DNA from: Acidobacteriaceae bacterium
Lineage (GTDB): Bacteria > Acidobacteriota > Terriglobia > Terriglobales > Acidobacteriaceae
NCBI GenBank assembly: GCA_025355505.1
Contig: JANXZM010000081.1
Coordinates: 1-64,000 of the forward strand
Length of the DNA stretch: 64,000 nucleotides
Direction of reading: 5' to 3'
Under the pieces are notes generated by a model, which was not told the origin of the DNA, did no database searches, and saw only the letters and a list, made by a program, of their open reading frames with translations. Positions 8,687 to 50,121 of the stretch are shown here, in pieces. Both the position numbers and the translations under genes were made by a program. Numbering within the stretch: position 1 is the first letter of the stretch; the number at the start of each line of letters is the position of its first letter.

Positions 8687-10483
8687 TCAGTTCGCGGCGG
8701 ATTTCGCGCGCCCGTTGTGACTGCGGAGCCAGACTTCGGCCTGCTGGCGGGCGGCAGAGACCTGCGCCCGCGTCATTTGGGAAGCCAGCCCTTCGAGTCG
8801 AGACTTGCTGTTCTCGTCACCCTGGGCAAGTGCGATCGCGGACCAGACGTAAGCTTTGGAAAAATCTTGAGGAACTCCACGCCCGGCCCAATAGTAAGCG
8901 CCGAGCGTAGCCTGCGCGGTAACGTGCCCCTGTTCGGCGGCGCGCAGGAACCACTGCATGGCCTGCGCGTCATCCTGCGGGACGTCTTCTCCAATGTGGT
9001 AGCGCACGCCCATCTGCCATCGCGCGTCCGCGTCTCCCTCATCGGCGCGCTTTTGCAAGTCTGCCAAGGACTTCGCTTGCGCGCTGTGATGGGCCGAGCG
9101 ACGCTCGGTCGCGCTCTGCCCTGGAACCTTCGAGGCCGCCCCGGCAAACGAACGCTGCGACGCTTGCGGTGAGTCAGCCCAACGCTTCTCGATTATGGGA
9201 CCGACTAAATAGCCGACGACCATCGCCACCACTGCGATGGCCAGCCCGAGTAGTCCGCGATAAAGCCAGCGAGCCGGATTTTCGGGAAAATGTTCGGAGA
9301 CCTGCTCCGGAACTTGCTCTGCAACGATTTGTCCGGCGTCCTGCTGCGAGACTTCCTCGGCTTCAGGCTCCTGTTCCCACAAGGCCTCGCGCATCGCATG
9401 GATCGAATTCAACTTCATCGAGCGTGATTCCGAAGCGGGTGGCCGCGACACGGCTTCTAAACTGACCGGCGTTTCCAGTTGAGACTTTTCAGGCTCAGTA
9501 TTTACAAGCTGCGTCGTTTCACGATGGGTTTTGGGAACCATTTCGACGAGCCGGTCCAAAACCGCCTCGTGGACCCTGGTGAAACTGCGCGGATGCGGAG
9601 AGAAAATCTCGAGCAGGCCAACCACCCGAAAATCAGACACGATGGGAGCGGCCATAAGCGCGCCTATCCCCAGAGCACGACCGATTTCAGGATCAACACG
9701 CGGATCGCTTCCCATGTCGTCGCACGAGACGAGGAGGCCACTGCGAACGCATTCTCCAGACAGTCCTTGTTTTACGTCCACGGGAGCTCCCAGCGGCGGA
9801 GATGGTGCACCGGTTCGCGCCCGGCAGATCATTTTGTCATCCGTGAGAAACGCCAGGGCCGCGCCACTGGCTCCCGTCAGACTCAAGACGCGCTCGGTGA
9901 TGAGCTGCAAAACTGCATCGACGTCATCACCGATCTCGCGGATCTCGCGGCGAACCGCTTCCACCAAAGAGAGCGTTTCACTTCCATCAGAGAACGGGAC
10001 CGCACCGCCGACTTTAGTAACCGGCGATGGGTCGGGCGATTTCTCTTCCTCTCGCCGCGCCAGTTGCTCGGTTCGAGCAGCGTGGTTGGAGCAGGCGATG
10101 AGCAGGTTGGCAAAAAGCCATTCTTTAAGTACTTGCCGGGAGCTCTCAGGAAGCCCGGAAAACCGAATACCGCCGCGGCCGGCGTCATCGCTCCACATCA
10201 CCTCGCCACTGCCATGAATGTAACTTTTGGTTTCAGGCAGATCGAGGCAAAGGGCTACGGCCCGGTTCGTTTCCAGGCGCTCACTGGTTTGGACGGCGAA
10301 GCCGTCCTCGTGCAGGTCGAGCAATTCGCTCAGGTCCACAACCATGCCGGTCTGCGGGCCATTGAAGCTGGCGTAAACCGGAGTGTGGAGTTTTTGACGA
10401 ACACAACGGCGTCGTTCTCCGATGGGCGCCCCTGCGATTGGATCCGGTAATCTGACGACGCTCCGATCCATAGCTATGTCCAT
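8687..10483 (-). CDS. PilZ-GAF-transmembrane-Sel1 repeat protein
   Basis: A 598-residue membrane protein with an uncommon domain order. Residues about 25-130 resemble PilZ (RRRCVRQK at the start for the RxxxR element, then VVDLSELLDLHEDGF in place of the usual D/NxSxxG). Residues about 170-320 form a GAF domain (VLQLITERVLSLTGASGAALAFL...). Residues about 325-400 are a charged linker. One membrane helix follows (LLGLAIAVVAMVVGYLVGP, near 415-435). The periplasmic C-terminus has two Sel1-like repeats (DARWQMGVRYHIGEDVPQDD, AQATLGAYYWAGRGVPQDF). If PilZ binds c-di-GMP, the protein could carry that signal across the membrane to the adjacent polysaccharide machinery. The second PilZ motif is degenerate, so binding is unsure. 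Confidence 0.78.
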   Translation of the reverse strand: MDIAMDRSVVRLPDPIAGAPIGERRRCVRQKLHTPVYASFNGPQTGMVVDLSELLDLHEDGFAVQTSERLETNRAVALCLDLPETKSYIHGSGEVMWSDDAGRGGIRFSGLPESSRQVLKEWLFANLLIACSNHAARTEQLARREEEKSPDPSPVTKVGGAVPFSDGSETLSLVEAVRREIREIGDDVDAVLQLITERVLSLTGASGAALAFLTDDKMICRARTGAPSPPLGAPVDVKQGLSGECVRSGLLVSCDDMGSDPRVDPEIGRALGIGALMAAPIVSDFRVVGLLEIFSPHPRSFTRVHEAVLDRLVEMVPKTHRETTQLVNTEPEKSQLETPVSLEAVSRPPASESRSMKLNSIHAMREALWEQEPEAEEVSQQDAGQIVAEQVPEQVSEHFPENPARWLYRGLLGLAIAVVAMVVGYLVGPIIEKRWADSPQASQRSFAGAASKVPGQSATERRSAHHSAQAKSLADLQKRADEGDADARWQMGVRYHIGEDVPQDDAQAMQWFLRAAEQGHVTAQATLGAYYWAGRGVPQDFSKAYVWSAIALAQGDENSKSRLEGLASQMTRAQVSAARQQAEVWLRSHNGRAKSAAN

Positions 10484-39609: not shown

Positions 39610-41346
39610 CTATCTCAAACTGCTCGCCTCTGGTTGGCAAAGAACTTCCGACAGCGCCTCCGGAGAAATCGCCTGCACCAGCCGGCGAGCGGTGTCCGAG
39701 CCCGGCATAACCGCGCCCAACATTTCTGGAATGCGCAAGAGTTCATCTGGAAATTCGAGCATCCGCCCCACGCCGAAGCGGACATATTGGGGAGCATATC
39801 CGGCGTAAGCGTGCCGCAACCATCCGCACAGAAAGACGGGGATTCCGACCGATGCGCATTCGAAAGCCACTGTCGACTCGACCGTCACCGCGCACCATGT
39901 CTTCTGAAGAACCTCGCGAGACAGTGGCGCATCCGTCACGCTCACCAACTTCCGGTCGCCCTCGCTCAAAATCCGTGTCACCAGCCTCCGCCGCTGCCGG
40001 GCGCTCTCAAACGGATGCATCTTCAAAACCACGGTCTTGCCCGCCCCGCGGGCAGCCGCGCAGAGGCGTGGCAGCACCTCTCGATAAATCGCCTCCACCC
40101 GCCAAAGATCTGACTCATAGGGCTCGGTGAAAAATGTGATCCAGGGAGCGCCTTCACTCCAGACTGAAGCATTCTCTCGCCCGGGAGACGACGCCGCTCC
40201 GATCCGAATCCGGCTGGCATCAACTCCGCAGATGCGTTCCAGATAGTCACGCTCCATCTCGCCTTTGGCCAGATATTTTGAAAATCGCAGATTCTTGTGT
40301 GCCATGCGGCCATCGAGCGCTCCGTGATGGCACGCGACTGCCGGAACTCCACGCTGCTCCGCCAAAAGCAGCGGAATCCGCGTGTAGGGATTTGAATCGT
40401 CGGCGCTCAGGCAGCCTACCACCGCCCGCTTCTCAAAGACCCGAACCCAGGCGTCCCGAACCGCCAGTCCCCAGCGCAACCAACGCGGCCCCTTCTTCAA
40501 TATCTCGATCTGCAACGGCAAGCTGAATGCCGGATGTTCTTGCAGCGTCTGCTCCATCTGCTTCCAGCAGACTTCAAGTTTCTGCAATTCCTTCTGGTCG
40601 CACCTCTTCGCGGCAAAACTCGCCAGAGTCGCCGTCTGCACATTCGCGGGAACCGGCGATACTGCCGCAGACTCGCGGGCGAGCACCAGAAGAAATTTCT
40701 GCTCCGGCAAAATCCCCGCGTAACTGAGTGCGGTTTTCGTGACGTTCAAATACGCCGTCGGAAGCAGCACAACCGGCTCCGGCAATTCCGTAGGTGCCCC
40801 CGCCAGTTTCCTTCGCCACACGTAGTGCGGATCGTATTTGTCGTACACCACCTGCCGCAATTGTTCAAAACTCAGGTTCCTCGCTGCGGTCGCGCTGCGA
40901 CGCAAAAAGCTGGGCACCAGGCGCTTCCGCAATCCCCGGCGGAGTATTTGCAGCGGTATTCCCAACCGAAGTCGCAAAGCTTCTGCCATCACCGACGGCC
41001 GGCTTACCGCCAGCGTGCGACATCCACTGAGCTTCTCGGCCAGCCGAAGCGCGAGTTGCACATCCTGCAATTGCGGCTGCAGCAGCAAACCGATCACATC
41101 CCACCAGTCGATGCCAAAACGATCCACCACGCGTCCCATGCCGAGTTCAAGCAGGTGACGCCAAACCTGCAGGTCCCCAACTTCGACGGCAAAGTCGAAA
41201 ACGCTGTACACCGGACAGCCCAGCGCGGCACTCCGCTCGTCATAAAAAGATTTTGGGGCTTGCCCCAGGTCGATCACCGAATCCCAATGCTGACTTGTCC
41301 ACCAACCGTGGAAGTCGTCGTCGGGATGTAAGAGGAGAACTCGCAT
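39610..41346 (-). CDS. Glycosyltransferase-like protein, candidate nonulosonate transferase
   Basis: A 578-residue protein of no family that I can name with certainty. The C-terminal third looks like the GT-B donor domain of capsule or polysialyltransferase-like proteins: PWITFFTEPYESDLWRVEAIY, TVVLKMHPFESARQRRRLV (the K-x-H-P element), CAVTVESTVAFECASVGIPVF. A central VPAVACHHGALDGRMAHK (with LLLAEQRG before it) also fits. The N-terminus, MRVLLLHPDDDFHGWW, resembles a first Rossmann strand. It directly follows PseI (24 nt gap) at the end of the nonulosonate genes, so transfer of the CMP-activated sugar is the best guess. Confidence 0.62.
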   Translation of the reverse strand: MRVLLLHPDDDFHGWWTSQHWDSVIDLGQAPKSFYDERSAALGCPVYSVFDFAVEVGDLQVWRHLLELGMGRVVDRFGIDWWDVIGLLLQPQLQDVQLALRLAEKLSGCRTLAVSRPSVMAEALRLRLGIPLQILRRGLRKRLVPSFLRRSATAARNLSFEQLRQVVYDKYDPHYVWRRKLAGAPTELPEPVVLLPTAYLNVTKTALSYAGILPEQKFLLVLARESAAVSPVPANVQTATLASFAAKRCDQKELQKLEVCWKQMEQTLQEHPAFSLPLQIEILKKGPRWLRWGLAVRDAWVRVFEKRAVVGCLSADDSNPYTRIPLLLAEQRGVPAVACHHGALDGRMAHKNLRFSKYLAKGEMERDYLERICGVDASRIRIGAASSPGRENASVWSEGAPWITFFTEPYESDLWRVEAIYREVLPRLCAAARGAGKTVVLKMHPFESARQRRRLVTRILSEGDRKLVSVTDAPLSREVLQKTWCAVTVESTVAFECASVGIPVFLCGWLRHAYAGYAPQYVRFGVGRMLEFPDELLRIPEMLGAVMPGSDTARRLVQAISPEALSEVLCQPEASSLR

Positions 41347-41370: not shown

Positions 41371-42426
41371 TCAGTCCGACACCAGAGTCCAGGTCAGCGG
41401 CGTTCCCCGCTCCACATCGCGGGCCGCGCGTTTTCCCAGAACTTCATTGAAGTGCCGTGGGTGCAATCCGTCCGCCGGACGAATCGAACGCACGTTCTGT
41501 TTTGTAAACAATTCGCCCTTCCTTATATCTTCGACCACAAACAAGGAACGCCGAAACCTGCGGCTGTTGGCCTCGCGCGGTCCAGAAGCAAACTGCACCG
41601 CGCCAAGAGCTTTCTCGGCCGTGCGCACCGCCTCCACCATCGCCTTGAATTCCTGGGGTTCGAGTGAGAACGCGCCGTCCGGCCCGCCATCCGCGCGTCG
41701 CAGACAAAGATGTTTCTCAATAATGCATGCTCCCAGCGCCACCGCGACCACTGGAACCGCGATGCCCATCGTGTGATCGGAAAGTCCCACGGGACAACCG
41801 AAACGGCGGGCAAGCTCCGGGATCGTAAGCAGGTTCGCCTCTTCCGGTAGTGCCGGGTAGGCGCTCGTACACTTCAACAGAGCAATCTGAGCGGCACCCG
41901 CCCCGCGCGCCGCCTCGACCGCTTCGGAGATTTCCTCTTCGCTCGCCATTCCCGCCGACATAATCAGCGGCTTACCAGTCCGAGCCATCTTCTGGATCAG
42001 GCCGATGTCCACCAGTTCAAACGACGCCACCTTGTGCGCCGGAACATTCATCTGCTCAAGAAAATCGACGGCACTATCGTCGAACGCGCTCGAAAACAAG
42101 TGCATCCCCAGTTCGTCCGCGATCTCTTTGAGTTTCGGCTGCCACTCCCAGGGCGTAAATGCCTCCTGGTAAAGGTCGTGAAGAATGCGGCCATCCCACA
42201 GCGTGCCGCCCGCAATCCGAAAACACTCTTTGTCGCTGCGCAGGGTGATCGTATCCGCCGTGTAGGTCTGGAGTTTCACCGCATCCGCGCCCGCGTCTTT
42301 GGCGGCGTGAAGAATGCGAACCGCCTGATCGAAATTCTGGTTGTGATTGGCGGAAAGTTCGGCAATCACATAGCAGGGCGCTTGCCATCCAATCGTCCGG
42401 TTGCCGATGCGAAAGCTGCGCTCCAT
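41371..42426 (-). CDS. pseI: Pseudaminic acid synthase (NeuB family)
   Basis: A 351-residue enzyme that condenses a 6-deoxy-hexose precursor with phosphoenolpyruvate to give a nonulosonic acid. ATG 42426 shares its A with the stop of the upstream WbqC gene (TGATG); the longer frame to 42711 overlaps that gene and is rejected. NeuB-domain landmarks are CYVIAELSANHNQNFDQAV, ADAVKLQTYTADTITL, SSAFDDSAVDFLE, LIMSAGMASEEEI and LSDHTMGIAVPVVAVALGA. A C-terminal SAF domain is present (RSLFVVEDIRKGELFT...GKRAARDVERGTPL). TADTIT in place of TYTPDT-type loops fits PseI better than sialic acid synthase. Confidence 0.9.
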   Translation of the reverse strand: MERSFRIGNRTIGWQAPCYVIAELSANHNQNFDQAVRILHAAKDAGADAVKLQTYTADTITLRSDKECFRIAGGTLWDGRILHDLYQEAFTPWEWQPKLKEIADELGMHLFSSAFDDSAVDFLEQMNVPAHKVASFELVDIGLIQKMARTGKPLIMSAGMASEEEISEAVEAARGAGAAQIALLKCTSAYPALPEEANLLTIPELARRFGCPVGLSDHTMGIAVPVVAVALGACIIEKHLCLRRADGGPDGAFSLEPQEFKAMVEAVRTAEKALGAVQFASGPREANSRRFRRSLFVVEDIRKGELFTKQNVRSIRPADGLHPRHFNEVLGKRAARDVERGTPLTWTLVSD

Positions 42427-43178
42427 CAGGTACCCACCTTCGCGTTCAAATGCGCCGCAGCTTCCGCGGGAGCAAACGGTGTGCGCCGCCCACTGCGAAC
42501 CGTCGCCAGCGAGTTTCCGCCCTCGTTGAACAGCAGGTCCAGTACGCTGGCATGCGCCTGGAATGGAGGGAAAAGCTGCCGGTACGAAGGGTGCTCGTAA
42601 TGCTGAAAGACTACATCTACGCCCTGGCCAGTCAGGATTGGCAAGTCGTTCAGCAGATAATCGGCAGATCCCAGCGGCGAAACGTAGGTTGTCGCCCCTG
42701 ACAAACTGCAAATCTCCGCCAGCAATTGAGTGCGTTTGCCATCAACCCCCAGATGGGAAGACCTGACGATTGGCGTCTCGACCCCCAGCGCCTTAGACAA
42801 CCAGCGGAACAGGCTGATGGTCAGCTCGGCAAGACGAAGGCCCGACGATGCCGACCGCAGTAATTCGCTCAATGCCGGGTAATAGTCGTCGAAGCACGGA
42901 GCACGGCGATAATTCAACTCCACGGCGCGCAAGTGATCGCGCCAGAATTCCGCTTCCCGAATCTCCACGTCCACGATGCGCTGGCCAAGCCGCCCTCGGA
43001 ACACGACGGGCACGGTGAGCCACAGCAGGCCCGTCGGAGTCTTGATCCGGTTTCGCTGCTGCCACGACTGCTTCTCAAACTGCACCGTGTCCAGCAGCAC
43101 GAACTTGTCCACTTGGTCGAGCAGATCGAAATAGCCGAGCCATGGCAGATACGTCGGCTGCGCAATTGCGATTTTCAC
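42426..43178 (-). CDS. WbqC-family protein
   Basis: About 250 residues from GTG 43178, whose GTGA overlaps the stop of the upstream acetyltransferase. The frame is open to 43331, but the family start VKIAIAQPTYLPWLGYF fixes this one. Further family features are LLDTVQFEKQSWQQRNRIK, LWLTVPV and TTYVSPLGSADYL. WbqC proteins occur in O-antigen loci beside amino-sugar and nonulosonate genes. They are thought to act in sugar modification, but the reaction is not established. The gene is tightly packed between a GNAT and pseI. Confidence 0.85.
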   Translation of the reverse strand: MKIAIAQPTYLPWLGYFDLLDQVDKFVLLDTVQFEKQSWQQRNRIKTPTGLLWLTVPVVFRGRLGQRIVDVEIREAEFWRDHLRAVELNYRRAPCFDDYYPALSELLRSASSGLRLAELTISLFRWLSKALGVETPIVRSSHLGVDGKRTQLLAEICSLSGATTYVSPLGSADYLLNDLPILTGQGVDVVFQHYEHPSYRQLFPPFQAHASVLDLLFNEGGNSLATVRSGRRTPFAPAEAAAHLNAKVGT

Positions 43179-43630
43179 GACTTGCTCCGCGCAAGCACAA
43201 ATCGTTCCGTCGCCTTCTGAAATCCCAGGGACTTCCAAAACGCGGCCCACGACGTCTGGCCGTTGGCCAGTTCGAGTTGTATCTTCGAGGGAGAGTGCGT
43301 CCACAGCTCCCGAACTGCCGCTTCGCCACACGCCTGGGCGACACCGCGCCGGCGAAATTCTGGACTAACGTAGAGTTCGTAAATGGCGCCCGTCTTCCGC
43401 GGAAGAAACCGGTGCTTCTCCAGCCCGAACAGAATGAATCCTGCCCGCTTCTCATCGTAAATAATCCAGCGAAGAAAGTACTGCGGGTTCGCCATGATGG
43501 TTGCGAAATAGTGCTCTTTCCAGTCCTCCTGCGGCACAAAAGAGGCGTTCAGTTCGGAAAAATGCTTCACAGCCATGGACAGAAACTCGTCCTGCTCCGA
43601 AGATGCGATGGGAAACATGCTAGTGGTCAT
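43175..43630 (-). CDS. GNAT acetyltransferase, likely PseH-equivalent
   Basis: A 151-residue GNAT. The acetyl-CoA loop is YELYVSPEFRRRGVAQACG (R/Q-x-x-G-x-G/A variant, about residues 85-103), followed by IQLELANGQTSWAAFWKSLGF, the usual last strand-helix. In the pseudaminic pathway PseH acetylates the 4-amine made by PseC. This gene sits exactly between pseG and the WbqC/pseI genes and no other acetyltransferase is in the locus, so it probably does that step. The sequence alone only shows GNAT. The start overlaps the pseG stop (ATGA). Confidence 0.8.
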   Translation of the reverse strand: MTTSMFPIASSEQDEFLSMAVKHFSELNASFVPQEDWKEHYFATIMANPQYFLRWIIYDEKRAGFILFGLEKHRFLPRKTGAIYELYVSPEFRRRGVAQACGEAAVRELWTHSPSKIQLELANGQTSWAAFWKSLGFQKATERFVLARSKS

Positions 43631-44658
43631 TGCACTCCTAATCGTTGCGTCGCTTCGACAACACGTGTTGCTCCCAGGCCGTCGACGAGCGTGCGGCCCA
43701 GGTTCGTCATGCGCTCACGCGCCATGCGCGAATTGAGCAGCTCTTTCGCTGAAACGGCAAGTTTTGCCGGGTCAAAGTGGCGAGTCTCGCCCATGTCTAC
43801 CACCACCCCGCGTTGCGACAAAGCCTGCACGACGCGCGTTTGCACAATATTTCTAGAATAGCTCAATACCGCACAGCCGGTGGAAAGGAGCTCCCAGAGC
43901 GTTCCACCCGCGGCAATGATCGCCTGATCGGAGTCCTTCATGAACTGCGCCATGTTGGGAGGGTTGAATACGACTCGGAGATTGCTCGCCTTCAGCTTTC
44001 GCAGCTCATCCGCTTTGTCGCAGCCGGCTCCCGCGATCACTGTGACTTCAAGATCGAAGCAGTGCGCAAGAGCGTCCACAATTTTCGGCGTCAGATTCTC
44101 CGGATCGCTTCCGCCGAGGGTTACGAGAATCCTGTGGCCGGTTTGGCGAATCTCCCTTTTTTCGGTTCCTTGCCTGAACTCCCGGCGCAGCAAAACGTAA
44201 GGCGGGCCGGCTAACAGCTCAGCGGTGGCGCCTCGTCTTCGATACGGCTCCTTATCCTCGTCAAGATTCGGATTCACGATCAGATCGGCAGGAAAAGATT
44301 CCCTGTCAGCGAAATCATCGATCAGCAGTACTCGAAAACCTGCCGCGCGAACCGTCTTCAGAAAATCACTGCCGAAGCGATCGCCGTCGATCACGACCCA
44401 ATCGGCGCTCAGCCGGCGAGCCTGCGCAACCGTCTCAACAGCGTCCTCGCGACCGCCGGGGGTTGCATGAACCCGGCTCAGTGAGACCCCTTCCGCAGCC
44501 ACACGAGGCGAAAGCGCATCCGGCAACTCTGTCACGGCAAGACTTGCCGTGCCGCCGGCGTCCTGCCAAGCCTGGGCTAGGGCCAGGCAGCGCATCACAT
44601 GTCCAGTTCCTATCGCGAGACTGGCATCGGCCCGAATCAGAAGTACGCCTGGTTTCAT
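43627..44658 (-). CDS. pseG: UDP-sugar hydrolase of the pseudaminic acid pathway
   Basis: A 343-residue MurG-like protein predicted to remove UDP from UDP-2,4-diacetamido-2,4,6-trideoxy-beta-L-altropyranose. The start is RADASLAIGTGHVMRCLALA, with the G-x-G-H loop and catalytic His of PseG/SpsG. VVIDGDRFGSDF, LLIDDFADRESFPADLIVNPN and ILVTLGGSDPENLTPKIV are family hallmarks. The donor site includes QAIIAAGGTLWELLSTG. It lies 80 nt after the fusion gene and overlaps the GNAT by 4 nt. Length is typical (about 340). Confidence 0.93.
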   Translation of the reverse strand: MKPGVLLIRADASLAIGTGHVMRCLALAQAWQDAGGTASLAVTELPDALSPRVAAEGVSLSRVHATPGGREDAVETVAQARRLSADWVVIDGDRFGSDFLKTVRAAGFRVLLIDDFADRESFPADLIVNPNLDEDKEPYRRRGATAELLAGPPYVLLRREFRQGTEKREIRQTGHRILVTLGGSDPENLTPKIVDALAHCFDLEVTVIAGAGCDKADELRKLKASNLRVVFNPPNMAQFMKDSDQAIIAAGGTLWELLSTGCAVLSYSRNIVQTRVVQALSQRGVVVDMGETRHFDPAKLAVSAKELLNSRMARERMTNLGRTLVDGLGATRVVEATQRLGVQ

Positions 44659-44738: not shown

Positions 44739-47700
44739 TCAGCGAACTCGGAATACCGGCTGAATCATCTCGCCTTCAAGATACTTTTCCGGATCTGCTT
44801 CGCCCAGCCATTGCGCCACTGTCTTACACACTTCCGCATACACCCGCAGCGTCTGTTCAATCGCCAGCGGATCGTGCGCTGCTGTCATGTTATGCGTTGC
44901 CAGCAGCAGCACTCCGCGTTTCACGCATTCTTGCGTGAACAGACTTCGCACCATAAGACTGTCTTTGCCCTCGGCATCGAGGAACTTGATCAACGACCAA
45001 ACCGGATAACCGATGCACTTGATGCGATCCTGCAATCCCGCCTCTTTTGCCAGCGTGTTCAATCCCTCCTGCAGCACGCGCCCGTTCGCATCCATGCGGG
45101 CCAGCGCGTCGGTGTTTTCCAGCACATCCAGCACCTTCATGGCCGCTGCCATCGACGCCACTTCACCCCCGAAGGTAAAGCTGAAAAAAATATCTTCAAA
45201 CGCCTTCATGACGTCCGCTCGTCCCACCACGCACGCAATCGGGAATCCGTTGCCCATCGCCTTCCCAAAGCAAGCCAGATCGGGAGTCACACCGAACCTT
45301 TTCTGCGCGCCCCCCAGCCCGAAGTGAAAACCGCTACAGATCTCATCGAAGATGAGCAAAGCTCCGTGTTCATGCGCCAGATCTTTCACGTCTTCCAGAA
45401 AGCCCGCAGCTGGCGGCCAGAAGTTCACCGGCTCCATGATGACGGCGGCGAACTCACTTTTATGTTCGTTCAAAAGTTTTTGCAGCGATCCCAGGTCGTT
45501 GTATACAAACGGATGCGTCAAAGCCCGCACCGCTTGCGGAACGCCTGCATTTCGTGTGGTGCTGCCGATGTACCAATCCTGCCATCCGTGATACCCACAG
45601 CAGGCAATCCGCTCGCGTCCGCTGAGAGCTCGGGCAGCGCGCACTGCTCCTGAAGTAGCGTCCGATCCGTTCTTGCCAAAGCGTACTTTCTCCGCGCACG
45701 GAATCAGCCGCACCAGCCGCTCCGCCAGTTCCACTTCCAGAGGGTGCGGCAAAGAAAAACTGTGCCCTAGTCCCAACTGCTCCGCCACCGCCGCATTCAC
45801 CTCGGCGTGCGCGTAGCCAAGAATGTTCGGCAGCAGTCCCTGGATGTAATCGATATATTCATTCCCGTCCACATCCCAAACCCGGCAACCCTTGCCCTTC
45901 GCCAGGAACGCCGGCGCCACCCCGCGGACGTGCTGGTTGGCTCCCTTGCTGAACGTCTGCGAAGAACCGGGAATCACCTTGCCCGCCCGCTCCAGCCATG
46001 CTTTCGATTTTTCAACCGGCCGGCGCGGCGCCGCCGCCGCGCGCGCCTCCTCGTAAAGGCTCGTGTAGTACCCGCGGTTGGAAACTATGTCCGAGTTCAT
46101 TTTTTCCAGCCCTGGATTCTTCTCGATCAATTCGAAAACATCTTTCATCCCGAAACTCTCCTCCTCGCGAAAAGCCTTGTACACCGCCCGGATGAACTCC
46201 AAGTCTTGCGCCTCGTCCACGGTCCACCGGTAATGCTGGTACAAGAACGTCGAATCGTTTTCGACGTTCGCAGTTCGAAATTTGTCCGAGCGCAGGTACG
46301 GAGTCACGTGCTCGCGCTCAGAACTTTTACTAGCCTCGTGCCACGCCCGTTCCAACGCGGAAAACGAAAAGATCTCCGTATCCAGCCCATCGGGATAGCT
46401 CCTCACCATGGCATTGGAGGCGTAATCGAGATCGCCGCGCTGAAAGCGTCGCACGACCCGATCGATCACTTCCGGGTCAATCAACGGGCAATCGGCAGTG
46501 ACGCGCACCACCTGCGCCGCTTTTTCCGCGCGCGCCGCGTGGTAGAAACGATCAAGAACATCGTTCTCGCTGCCCCGATAACATGGGACGTCATTCTCCC
46601 GGCACATCTTCTCAATGGCGTCGTCCGCCGGAGCGACGGAGGTGGCCACCGCCACCCGATCCACCAGAGTGGCCCGTTTCACGCGTTGAATGACATGCCA
46701 CAACATCGGCCGTTTTTCGATCTCCGCCAGGCTCTTGCCCGGCAACCGGCTCGACCCCATTCGCGCCTGAATGATCGCCACCACTGGCCCCTCGCTGGTT
46801 TCGCTGTTCCAATTCAGCGCCTGCGGCTTTCCCTCTTCCGACGATTTCTTGGCTGCTTCCACCACCCGGATCACATCTAGGCTTTGCTCCAGGTCGACCA
46901 TCGGCCCGGTTCCGCTCCCCAGAGACTCCAGGAAGGAACGCATTTCCGCTACATACATGTCGTTGGGTTCAAACACGTACGGGATGCTATTCCAACCTGG
47001 CTGCTCAGCCGAAAACCAGCGCACTTCCTGGACACTGAAATTCCAAAGCACAGTTCCGGTCTCGCCCACAACTTTGCAGGTGCGCGTGTATGCCCGCTGC
47101 ACAAAATCCAGATGCAGTTCCGCGCGCCGCCGCTCCGGAAAACTCAGGTAGATCCACGCCGAATCTTCCACATCCACGTCCAGACTGCTGAGATGCTCAG
47201 CCCGGCAAGTCACTTCCGTGGGTCGCCCCAACAGCCAGCAAATGTAATCCAGTTCGTGTGAACCATCCAGGATGATGCCCCCGCCCAGTTCCTGGCGCGC
47301 GCTGTAGCTTTCGCGATAGTTTTGCCACGGGCGCCAGTCGGGAAGGTATTGCCCCGCTTCCACGTTGAGCCACAGCACGCGCCCGATCTTTCCCGAATCA
47401 ATGAGCTCCTTCAATATCTGCAAGCCGGGATGAAACCGCATGTTGTAGCCGACCTGGACGTTCCGGTTGCGCCGACGCGCCTCGGCAATCAGTGCCAGGA
47501 TTCCACTCGATTCGTGCGAAAGAGGTTTCTCGATAAAAACGTGGGCTCGAGCCTGCAGCGCGGCCAGCGCCTCCTCCACGTGATATACAGGCGGAGTACA
47601 GATCAGCACGATATCCGGCCTGAATTTCTGCAGCGCCTCGCCATAGTCGCCGAAGATTTCCCCGTTCATCTCCTCACGGCATTGCTTCAGCGCTTCGGGG

Positions 47701-47825
47701 CTGGTGTCGCAAAAGCCCAGCTGCTCCACCCCAAGAGACTTGAGGTTCCTTGCGTGCCGCCGGCCAATGGAACCGCAGCCTACTACCAGAGCCCGATACC
47801 CCACCCACTCGGAAATCGTGGACAT
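44739..47825 (-). CDS. Three-domain fusion: Gfo/Idh/MocA oxidoreductase, nonulosonate cytidylyltransferase (PseF/SpsF-like), class-III aminotransferase
   Basis: A 1028-residue protein with three intact enzyme domains in one frame. Residues about 10-340: NAD(P)-dependent Gfo/Idh/MocA oxidoreductase (ALVVGCGSIGRRHARNLKSL; FIEKPLSHE with Lys100; GGGIILDGSHELDY). Residues about 348-585: cytidylyltransferase (VVAIIQARMGSSRLPGKSL; RVTADCPLIDPEVIDRV). It should make the CMP-sugar. Residues about 605-1028: glutamate-1-semialdehyde-aminomutase-like PLP enzyme (GNEYIDYIQGLLPNILGYAH; LLIFDEICSGFHFGLGG; ACFGKAMGNGFPIA with Lys855). No frame break or signal peptide. It lies 3 nt after pseC and 80 nt before pseG. 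No separate pseF was found, so domain 2 fills that step. The outer domains could form an oxidation-transamination pair on a hydroxyl; that is inference. Confidence 0.88.
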   Translation of the reverse strand: MSTISEWVGYRALVVGCGSIGRRHARNLKSLGVEQLGFCDTSPEALKQCREEMNGEIFGDYGEALQKFRPDIVLICTPPVYHVEEALAALQARAHVFIEKPLSHESSGILALIAEARRRNRNVQVGYNMRFHPGLQILKELIDSGKIGRVLWLNVEAGQYLPDWRPWQNYRESYSARQELGGGIILDGSHELDYICWLLGRPTEVTCRAEHLSSLDVDVEDSAWIYLSFPERRRAELHLDFVQRAYTRTCKVVGETGTVLWNFSVQEVRWFSAEQPGWNSIPYVFEPNDMYVAEMRSFLESLGSGTGPMVDLEQSLDVIRVVEAAKKSSEEGKPQALNWNSETSEGPVVAIIQARMGSSRLPGKSLAEIEKRPMLWHVIQRVKRATLVDRVAVATSVAPADDAIEKMCRENDVPCYRGSENDVLDRFYHAARAEKAAQVVRVTADCPLIDPEVIDRVVRRFQRGDLDYASNAMVRSYPDGLDTEIFSFSALERAWHEASKSSEREHVTPYLRSDKFRTANVENDSTFLYQHYRWTVDEAQDLEFIRAVYKAFREEESFGMKDVFELIEKNPGLEKMNSDIVSNRGYYTSLYEEARAAAAPRRPVEKSKAWLERAGKVIPGSSQTFSKGANQHVRGVAPAFLAKGKGCRVWDVDGNEYIDYIQGLLPNILGYAHAEVNAAVAEQLGLGHSFSLPHPLEVELAERLVRLIPCAEKVRFGKNGSDATSGAVRAARALSGRERIACCGYHGWQDWYIGSTTRNAGVPQAVRALTHPFVYNDLGSLQKLLNEHKSEFAAVIMEPVNFWPPAAGFLEDVKDLAHEHGALLIFDEICSGFHFGLGGAQKRFGVTPDLACFGKAMGNGFPIACVVGRADVMKAFEDIFFSFTFGGEVASMAAAMKVLDVLENTDALARMDANGRVLQEGLNTLAKEAGLQDRIKCIGYPVWSLIKFLDAEGKDSLMVRSLFTQECVKRGVLLLATHNMTAAHDPLAIEQTLRVYAEVCKTVAQWLGEADPEKYLEGEMIQPVFRVR

Positions 47826-47828
47826 GAT

Positions 47829-49115
47829 TTATTTTGCTTGCCTGGTCTCGAGCAAATGCGAGCGCTCGCCTTTCCCTTCAGATTTTCCTTGATAGTGGGT
47901 CAAAACTTTACGCAGCGCGTGGATCACGTCTTCCACATCCTGCACCGTCATCGAATGAAACATAGGCAGGCTGATCAGCCGCTCATACGCGTCCTCCGCA
48001 ACCGGATAGCTCTCCTCCGAGTGGAAGCGCTCCCGGTAGTACGGATGCCGATGCACCGGGATGTAGTGCACATTCACGCCAATATTCTCCGCCCGCAGCG
48101 CTCGAAAGATATCCCCCCGCCCCACCGCCAGCATTTCCAGTTTCAGCCGCACCGGATACAGATGCCACGCCGGATTCACACCCTCGCGCACCGTGGGAAT
48201 AACGATGGTTGGTAATTCCCGAAACACCTCCGCATACTGCGCCGCAATTTCCCGCCTCCGCGCCAGGTTCGCGTCCAGCTTCTCCAACTGTGACAGTCCC
48301 AGCGCGCAGGCAATATCTGTCAACCTGTAATTGAAGCCCAGCAGCACCATCTCGTAAAACCACTGCCCGGATTCCTGCCGCTGCCGCGCTTCGCTGCTGA
48401 TGCCGTGATTGCGAAAACGCCGCAGCGTCTCTGCCAGCCGCGCATCGTTGGTCGCAACCATGCCACCTTCCCCGGTCGTCAGGTGCTTCACCGGATGAAA
48501 GCTAAACACGGTCATGTCGGCAATGCTACCAACGCGTTTCCCCCGATATTCCGCGCCCAGCGCATGCGAGGCATCTTCAATCAGCAGCGCTCCGTGCTCC
48601 TTCGCCAGCTCGCCCAGTTCATCAAGCGCGGCCGGATGTCCCGCGTAGTCGACCGCAATGATGGCCTTGGTGCGTGAAGACGCGCGAGAACATGCGAGTG
48701 CGGTGATTTTCCTGGAGACTTCCCCAGGATCAAGGTTCAGCGTGTCCGGCGAGACGTCGGCGAACACCGGCGTCGCCCCCTGGTACAGAACGCAATTCGC
48801 GGTCGCGCAGAAAGTCATGGGGGTGGTAATCGCCTCATCCCCAGGCCCCAGTCCGGCGGCAAACGCCGAACCGTGCAAGGCGGCCGTGCCCGAGCTGAAG
48901 CTGACCGCGTGCCGCGCCCCCACCCACGCCGCAAACCGATTTTCAAACTCGCCGATCTTCGGTCCCGTGGTGAGCCAGTCCGACTTCAGAACCTCAACCA
49001 CTGCCTGCACATCCGCGTCATCCAGGCTCTGCCGCCCGTACGGCAACAATTTCTTCCGCACGGGGTTACCCCCATGAATGGCAAGAGTTTCCAGCTTTGT
49101 GGGCAAGGCACTCAT
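47829..49115 (-). CDS. pseC: UDP-4-amino-4,6-dideoxy-N-acetyl-beta-L-altrosamine transaminase
   Basis: A 428-residue DegT/DnrJ/EryC1 aminotransferase. It starts after a short lead with LLPYGRQSLDDADVQAVVEVL and DWLTTGPKIGEFE. AVSFSSGTAALHGSAFAAGLG binds the PLP phosphate. FSFHPVKHLTTGEGG carries the Schiff-base Lys. INVHYIPVHRHPYYRERF-like text (here VNVHYIPVHRHPYY) is the PseC tail signature. It should aminate C4 of the 4-keto product of PseB. It is encoded 1 nt downstream of pseB and 3 nt before the fusion gene, so all three are co-transcribed. Confidence 0.92.
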   Translation of the reverse strand: MSALPTKLETLAIHGGNPVRKKLLPYGRQSLDDADVQAVVEVLKSDWLTTGPKIGEFENRFAAWVGARHAVSFSSGTAALHGSAFAAGLGPGDEAITTPMTFCATANCVLYQGATPVFADVSPDTLNLDPGEVSRKITALACSRASSRTKAIIAVDYAGHPAALDELGELAKEHGALLIEDASHALGAEYRGKRVGSIADMTVFSFHPVKHLTTGEGGMVATNDARLAETLRRFRNHGISSEARQRQESGQWFYEMVLLGFNYRLTDIACALGLSQLEKLDANLARRREIAAQYAEVFRELPTIVIPTVREGVNPAWHLYPVRLKLEMLAVGRGDIFRALRAENIGVNVHYIPVHRHPYYRERFHSEESYPVAEDAYERLISLPMFHSMTVQDVEDVIHALRKVLTHYQGKSEGKGERSHLLETRQAK

Positions 49116-49116
49116 G

Positions 49117-50121
49117 CTAGGCGGACGTTGGAACCGCCACCGCAGTTTCAGGCGTCACCAGTTCTTCCAGTTCACGCCGCGTCAGCCAGCGTTCGTTGCT
49201 GTCGCTCGAATATCGGAAGCCTTCCGGAAGCGGCTTGGCATTGACCCAGTTTTCCGATTTCCACCACGGATGCGCCGGCTGTATCACGAACATGTCTTCA
49301 GTTTCCAGCGTTTGCCGCGACTCGTCTTCCGACACCAGCACTTCGTGCAACTTCTCTCCGGGACGAATCCCGATGGTCTCCACCTGGCATCCGGGGGCAA
49401 TGGTCTCCGCCAGGTCCAGCAATCGCATGCTTGGAATTTTCGGAACAAAAATCTCGCCGCCGTGCATCTGCTCCAGGCAGCGGATCACAAACTTCACGCC
49501 CTGCTCCAGCGTCAGCCAGAATCGCGTCATTCGCGGATCGGTGATCGTGATCTTCCCGCGCCGCCGCTGTTCCAGGAAAACCGGAATCACACTACCCCGG
49601 CTGCCCACCACGTTCCCGTAACGTGCGCAACTGAACCGCGTATTCTTCGCGCCTGAATAAGCATTGGCCTGCACAAACACTTTTTCCGCGCACAGCTTGG
49701 TGGCCCCGTACAAATTAATCGGATTCACCGCCTTGTCCGTGCTAAGCGCCAGAATGCGCCGCACGCCCTGATCAATCGCCGCATCAATCACGTTGCGGGC
49801 GCCCATGATATTGGTCTGGATCGCTTCAAACGGGTTGTACTCGCAAGCCGGCACTTGCTTCAGCGCCGCCGCGTGCACCACCACCGTCACGCCCGCGAGA
49901 GCGCGCTTCAAACGCTCCACGTCCCGAACATCTCCAATGAAATACCGCAGGCTGGGATGATCGAAGCCCGACGTCCTCATCTCATGCTGCTTCAACTCGT
50001 CCCGGCTGAAAACCACCAGTCTTTGAGGCTGGTAGTCGCGCAGCATGATCTCCACAAATTTCTTCCCAAACGATCCCGTCCCACCCGTTACCAGTATCGA
50101 TTCTTGCGACCAATTGACCAT
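49117..50121 (-). CDS. pseB: UDP-N-acetylglucosamine 4,6-dehydratase (inverting)
   Basis: A 334-residue SDR enzyme that begins pseudaminic acid synthesis by turning UDP-GlcNAc into a 4-keto-6-deoxy-L-sugar nucleotide. The cofactor loop is ILVTGGTGSFGKKFVEIML. The active-site region LALSTDKAVNPINLYGATK (about residues 127-145) has the Lys in place of Tyr that is usual in PseB/FlaA1. VVHAAALKQVPACEYNPFEA is a further hallmark. ATG 50121 has AGGGA 8 nt upstream. It is the first gene of the long minus-strand train, facing the divergent promoter region. Confidence 0.95.
   Translation of the reverse strand: MVNWSQESILVTGGTGSFGKKFVEIMLRDYQPQRLVVFSRDELKQHEMRTSGFDHPSLRYFIGDVRDVERLKRALAGVTVVVHAAALKQVPACEYNPFEAIQTNIMGARNVIDAAIDQGVRRILALSTDKAVNPINLYGATKLCAEKVFVQANAYSGAKNTRFSCARYGNVVGSRGSVIPVFLEQRRRGKITITDPRMTRFWLTLEQGVKFVIRCLEQMHGGEIFVPKIPSMRLLDLAETIAPGCQVETIGIRPGEKLHEVLVSEDESRQTLETEDMFVIQPAHPWWKSENWVNAKPLPEGFRYSSDSNERWLTRRELEELVTPETAVAVPTSA

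Follow-up and report, generated by a model that had tools for sequence, protein, structure and literature searches.

A single gene in the pseudaminic acid (Pse) operon of a soil-dwelling Acidobacteriaceae bacterium joins a Gfo/Idh/MocA dehydrogenase (GFO), an SpsF-like cytidylyltransferase (CTP) and a class III aminotransferase (AT) in one polypeptide. We propose, with a probability of roughly 60%, that this protein is a tailoring-and-activation enzyme for pseudaminic acid, the likely product being CMP-8-amino-8-deoxy-pseudaminic acid. The gene lies in a 64,000-nucleotide stretch of contig JANXZM010000081.1, referred to here as the window. The surface sugars known as nonulosonic acids control flagella, the binding of phages and the recognition of hosts.

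The fusion gene and its operon

The GFO-CTP-AT gene occupies 44739..47825 on the minus strand (47825->44739). Its 1028-codon frame starts with ATG and has zero internal stops, and the plus strand over 44739-47825 has stops. Pfam matches to GFO_IDH_MocA (residues 11-127, with its C-terminal domains to 334), CTP_transf_3 (349-517) and Aminotran_3 (637-991) all far exceed their gathering scores, and the key motifs are EKP at 99-101 (Lys100), RMGSSRLPGK from 355 and FGKAMGNG from 853 (Lys855). We looked for the fusion in 23 other genomes of the same genus and found it full-length and free of stops in eight congeners or related species (G008, G013, G009, G005, G001, G002, G006 and G022; 79-92% identity). 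Its presence in eight further species led us to reject a sequencing or assembly artefact. Contig ends cut the gene in G020 and G017, where it is partial, and in G021, a draft genome that is 72% complete, it is broken by a frameshift in the cytidylyltransferase domain; at that point (locus L023, G021:C422, ~9375-9385) the three-domain gene reads as two overlapping frames, which may reflect a draft error or a real break. The original prediction of an uninterrupted 1028-residue frame for three enzymes is thus borne out by the ORF, Pfam and the congeners. The residues it named (Lys100 of EKP, the cytidylyltransferase loop and Lys855) stand where it placed them and are conserved in homologues, and Pfam agrees with its family assignments (Gfo/Idh/MocA, SpsF-like cytidylyltransferase and GSA-aminomutase-like class III aminotransferase). 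Structure prediction of the full chain, which it had proposed as a check, gave a model with a pLDDT of 87.8 and a pTM of 0.59 that leaves the domain arrangement undefined.

The genes around the fusion, all on the minus strand, form a single operon in which PseB, PseC, PseG and PseI score above their NCBIfam curated cut-offs, in agreement with the pseudaminic acid operon originally proposed. Upstream lie PseB (49117..50121; TIGR03589, 502 bits, cut-off 408) and PseC (47829..49115; TIGR03588, 489 bits, cut-off 424), the latter ending 3 bp before the fusion gene. Downstream are PseG (43627..44658; TIGR03590, 193 bits, cut-off 154), a GNAT acetyltransferase at the PseH position (43175..43630; Pfam Acetyltransf_1) that overlaps PseG by 4 bp, a WbqC-family gene (42426..43187; Pfam WbqC, 220 bits; start picked by eye) and PseI (41371..42429; TIGR03586, 493 bits, cut-off 340), whose start was fitted to the family, the mechanical ORF being longer. 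The flippase, Wzz/kinase-like and O-antigen ligase genes in the wider region suggest that the sugar is probably destined for surface polysaccharide. Adjoining PseI is a 578-aa gene (window 39610-41346, minus strand) with only sub-threshold Capsule_synth similarity; a relative of it recurs near nine AT clusters, making it a candidate CMP-sugar transferase. PseG (43627-44658) is 36-74% identical among congeners whose PseB and PseI are ~80-97% alike, and the GNAT and WbqC genes are present or absent among the congeners' Pse operons, so N-acylation may differ from strain to strain.

One congener, G018, carries a Pse operon whose PseB (95%), PseC (81%) and PseI (91% identity) closely resemble those of the window and which has a lone 242-aa CTP at the place of the fusion. 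Neither GFO nor AT was found in the G018 Pse operon, which argues that the outer domains are accessory and dispensable for it, and supports the earlier claim that CMP-Pse needs the middle activity alone. The same facts could mean that the outer domains are inactive or merely structural and that the protein is just a PseF. We regard this as extremely unlikely, as catalytic residues are kept in 96-100% of homologues (Lys855 in 107/107 aligned ATs, Lys100 in 96% of 25 AT-associated GFOs) and dN/dS is 0.06-0.09 in all domains. Among congeners the median dN/dS of domains 1, 2 and 3 was 0.088, 0.070 and 0.059, respectively, at a dS of ~1.3 that is near saturation; by these sequence ratios, purifying selection acts on all three.

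The three domains and their relatives

Domain 1 (residues 1-340; 46806..47825, minus strand) has the Rossmann and C-terminal domains and the EKP lysine of the Gfo/Idh/MocA family, with Lys100, Asp187 and His190 conserved, and its AlphaFold model has a pLDDT of 95.3. The top fold matches were WlbA (Z 39.4) and GenD2 (Z 39.0), effectively tied, with KanD2 and GnnA lower; many other Gfo/Idh enzymes fall within 1-2 Z of the two leading scores, which counts against the proposed chemistry, and this common fold leaves the substrate of domain 1 undefined. GenD2, KanD2 and GnnA are dehydrogenases that act ahead of a PLP aminotransferase.

Domain 2 (residues 346-600; 46026..46790, minus strand) belongs to CTP_transf_3 (PF02348; 110.8 bits, gathering score 22.6) and has the QARMGSxRLPGK loop at 355; its nearest solved structure is 6oew. 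It was rejected as a canonical PseF, scoring 27 bits on TIGR03584 against a cut-off of 205.7, and no match over that cut-off was found anywhere in the window's genome. Compared with the canonical Pse operon, PseB, C, G and I are shared, but PseF (TIGR03584) gives way to an SpsF-like CTP, an AT and an oxidoreductase. Operon position and the absence of PseF point to domain 2 as a putative CMP-nonulosonate synthetase that replaces PseF.

Domain 3 (residues 604-1028; 44742..46016, minus strand) is a class III PLP aminotransferase by Pfam (PF00202, 185.8 bits), conservation and fold, with Lys855 as the PLP lysine. Its best fold match is the aminopentol aminotransferase FumI (Z 44.7, rmsd 1.8 over 402 residues), about tied with the GSAMs that come next at ~43-43.5. 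FumI is likewise a GSAM-like class III enzyme, but it is only 31% identical, free-standing and catabolic for hydrolysed fumonisin. Domain 3 falls well below the HemL cut-off (TIGR00713, 245-248 bits against 527.3), and the Arg of the HemL NSPVRAF motif, which binds the substrate carboxylate, aligns with Lys627, a position that is Lys in 99% of 107 rows. We rejected it as the HemL of the cell, a true HemL being encoded elsewhere in the genome (C68, 617 bits), and as a substitute for PseC, which is retained in the same operon.

Two known oxidation-transamination pairs offer comparisons. KdnB and KdnA act on an ulosonic acid at C8 in making Kdo8N, on the primary alcohol of Kdo, and KdnB is an iron alcohol dehydrogenase. 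WbpE-type aminotransferases are DegT-type, not class III, and WbpB/WbpE is not known as a fusion. The outer domains were originally likened to KdnB/KdnA, which proves not to be the closest analogy: the fusion dehydrogenase is Gfo/Idh/MocA by Pfam and not a member of the iron alcohol dehydrogenase family, in a paper on which KdnB is named (PMC5125639). WbpB/WbpE fits the oxidoreductase family better, and FumI the AT. In WbpB/WbpE (WlbA/WlbE, of UDP-GlcNAc3NAcA synthesis), a Gfo/Idh dehydrogenase forms a ketosugar that a PLP enzyme aminates (PMC10622841), much as proposed for the GFO and PLP pair of the fusion; here too the dehydrogenase and a PLP aminotransferase regularly occur together in one sugar operon, and WlbA is a top fold match of domain 1. 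WbpB/WbpE differs in acting at C3 of a UDP-hexuronic acid and in having no cytidylyltransferase.

Distribution of the cassette and its oxidoreductase partners

Homologues were surveyed in the 80 best AT loci among 84,980 species genomes, which were picked by similarity to the query, so that counts are not frequencies. CTP-AT is a single frame in most of these best 80 loci, mostly among Pse genes, and is spread over Acidobacteriota, Chloroflexota, Verrucomicrobiota, Omnitrophota, Pseudomonadota, Aquificota, Nitrospirota and Cyanobacteriota; on a haloarchaeal plasmid, the CTP and AT domains fall within one alignment. About a dozen of these loci have a separate GFO gene directly upstream of CTP-AT, and the order GFO, CTP, AT is constant whether the genes are separate (L015), half-fused (L014) or fully fused (window). 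Among the best 80 loci, the full three-way join was seen only in the window's genus (L032, L033 and congeners). Judged from these sequences, a widespread cassette has been joined into one protein at the level of this genus. The three enzymes had been described as normally separate, which does not hold for CTP-AT, as dozens of Pse clusters from various phyla carry it as a fusion; among the loci compared, the search for domain order and the comparison of neighbourhoods place the three-way join in this genus alone and, with the CTP-AT half being common, make the fusion less exceptional than claimed. A frame of about 1014-1035 aa in another acidobacterium (G433; L120:1036-4077, minus strand) was rejected as a further GFO-CTP-AT fusion, as it has radical-SAM-like motifs, recognised by eye, before the same AT type. 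Two loci labelled Mesoflavibacter (L111) and Bifidobacterium breve (L095) have ATs that group with Pseudomonadota and Thermodesulfobacteriota, and their bins or labels may be wrong.

Where AT clusters lack a GFO, an aldo/keto reductase of 290 aa (PF00248 by Pfam) usually precedes CTP-AT. Across the 80 AT loci the partner is an aldo/keto reductase in 42, a GFO in 16, both in 2 and a 2-hydroxyacid dehydrogenase only in 1, a type found in Kiloniella; 19 have none, five of which are Ignavibacteriota with an SDR directly downstream. About 14 of the 80 are without any of the four oxidoreductase families, several of them ending at a contig edge, which counts against the cassette. On supported branches of the AT tree, the GFO label changes at least six times and the aldo/keto label seven times, and G003 and G007, of the window's genus, carry the aldo/keto type. 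These swaps among unrelated oxidoreductase families suggest that the conserved feature is oxidation, not one oxidoreductase family.

To avoid query bias, a control set was chosen by PseI, not AT; it covers one proteobacterial class and a few Acidobacteriota. None of its 20 canonical-PseF clusters had an AT, GFO or aldo/keto reductase, and of its six AT clusters all carried an aldo/keto reductase and none a canonical PseF. An oxidoreductase was present in 6/6 AT clusters and 0/26 AT-less clusters (PseF and SpsF-only; Fisher p=1e-6); adding loci of the window's own lineage, retrieved for their match to the fusion, gave 16/16 and 0/28. All six phylogenetically independent pairs agree (p=0.03). 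Two exceptions count against the cassette rule: L143, which the cut on CTP score kept out of the 6/6 versus 0/26 table, carries an SDR and a fusion of CTP with aldo/keto reductase but no AT, and L078, a locus of the AT sample, combines PseF with the cassette. The L143 gene (12393-14072, minus strand), an SpsF-like CTP fused to an aldo/keto reductase with the SDR adjacent in a Pse operon, may represent a related oxidation-reduction tailoring route. A family clustering that merged aldo/keto reductase with PseF ORFs was set aside, the two having been linked via long chance frames.

In the CTP tree, the AT-less CTPs of Acidobacteriota and Gammaproteobacteria form a clade of their own (SH-aLRT 96), apart from the AT-linked CTPs, and the lone CTP of G018 shares only 46% identity with the fused CTP. 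These differences and the loss of PseF suggest a specialisation of the fused or AT-linked CTP for a changed sugar, in which case oxidation and amination would precede activation. Were the order reversed, the CTP domain would make CMP-Pse first and the GFO and AT would modify it afterwards, as in the Leg tailoring steps of PtmG and PtmH, which act on CMP sugars (PMC3766260). The fusion is compatible with either order, but canonical PseF is gone from 6/6 sampled AT clusters and the distinct AT-linked CTP lineage suggests that a changed sugar is accepted, which makes tailoring of the CMP sugar distinctly unlikely. We consider it very unlikely that the AT and oxidoreductase leave the sugar skeleton untouched and make an amino-acyl or other small precursor for attachment to Pse. 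Most GSAM-like enzymes do use small molecules and varied N-acyl groups are known on Pse (PMC3210612), but fusion of the AT to a CMP-activating enzyme in many phyla and the strict co-replacement of PseF tie it to the sugar, and the substitution of Lys627 for the HemL Arg also argues against a small precursor.

Proposed chemistry and its precedents

Pyranose Pse has free hydroxyls only at C4 and C8. In the preferred scheme, PseB-C-H-G-I would supply free Pse5Ac7Ac, or a variant with other acyl groups, in which the Gfo/Idh domain would use NAD(P)+ to turn one free hydroxyl, most likely the C8-OH, into a ketone. The AT domain, of class III, would aminate this ketone, using PLP and taking nitrogen from an amino donor, and the SpsF-like domain would make the CMP sugar last. 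The product would be a 5,7,8-triamino nonulosonic acid, used as its CMP sugar for surface polysaccharide. We infer these reactions, the position C8 and modification ahead of CMP activation from sequence. The earlier inference that an outer oxidation-transamination pair yields an extra-amino nonulosonic acid gains strength from the partner swaps, the PseI-sampled association and G018, the product itself being a prediction.

The same pair could act at C4, one of just two candidate positions, giving 4-keto-Pse and then a 4-amino-4-deoxy nonulosonic acid before CMP activation. RgNanOx, a Gfo/Idh enzyme that matches domain 1 with a Z of 37.1, oxidises sialic acid at C4, not C8 (PMC7535918). A 4-keto nonulosonic acid is, however, prone to 2,3-elimination, which RgNanOx exploits (PMC7535918), and two precedents favour C8. 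FumI interconverts CH3-CO- and CH3-CH(NH2)- beside a substituted carbon (PMC2933618), the same arrangement as Pse C8-C9, and 8-amino-3,5,7,8,9-pentadeoxynonulosonic acid is known in the O-polysaccharide of Flexibacter (Tenacibaculum) maritimus (PMC3210612). We therefore view reaction at C4 as unlikely and would favour C8 by about four to one. Such an amino sugar has not been reported from this strain or from any organism found with the cassette, which counts against the proposal, and no mention of the cassette was found in the T. maritimum genome paper.

The O-antigen locus of L. pneumophila Sg6/12 encodes PseG, a 'GSA 2,1-aminomutase', a cytidylyltransferase, a 'putative aldo/keto reductase', DegT, CapD and NeuB (PMC3694923); unlike in the fusion, the genes are separate, and the combination goes uncommented in that paper. 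Non-Sg1 O-chains of L. pneumophila are a diamino homopolymer according to a source that names no serogroups (PMC3766260), which, if valid for Sg6/12, argues against the 8-amine being universal. No description of the cassette was found in the literature on 8-epilegionaminic acid, triamino Pse or aldo/keto reductases in Pse islands, a search of openly licensed papers that is weak evidence. As far as we found, the unfused related gene sets, widespread in bacteria and some archaea, are apparently undescribed.

We consider evenly balanced the broader proposal of a widespread, undescribed route to a triamino nonulosonic acid (8-amino-8-deoxy-pseudaminic acid) in bacteria and archaea, in which PseF gives way to a package made up of an oxidoreductase whose family can be exchanged, a class III AT and a co-specialised CTP, with all three late steps on one polypeptide in this acidobacterial genus. 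If true, many Pse operons read as plain pseudaminic acid would make an extra-amino sugar, predictable from an oxidoreductase, an SpsF-like enzyme and a 'GSA aminomutase' replacing PseF. A common mis-annotation would be corrected, the Tenacibaculum maritimum 8-amino sugar would gain candidate genes, and a single polypeptide would be at hand for laboratory synthesis of such sugars. Ignavibacteriota clusters at L051, L052, L055, L057 and L065 have no PseB or PseC and combine CTP, AT and SDR with a NeuB-like synthase and, as assigned by eye, a KdsC-like phosphatase; a different ulosonic acid may undergo the same tailoring there.
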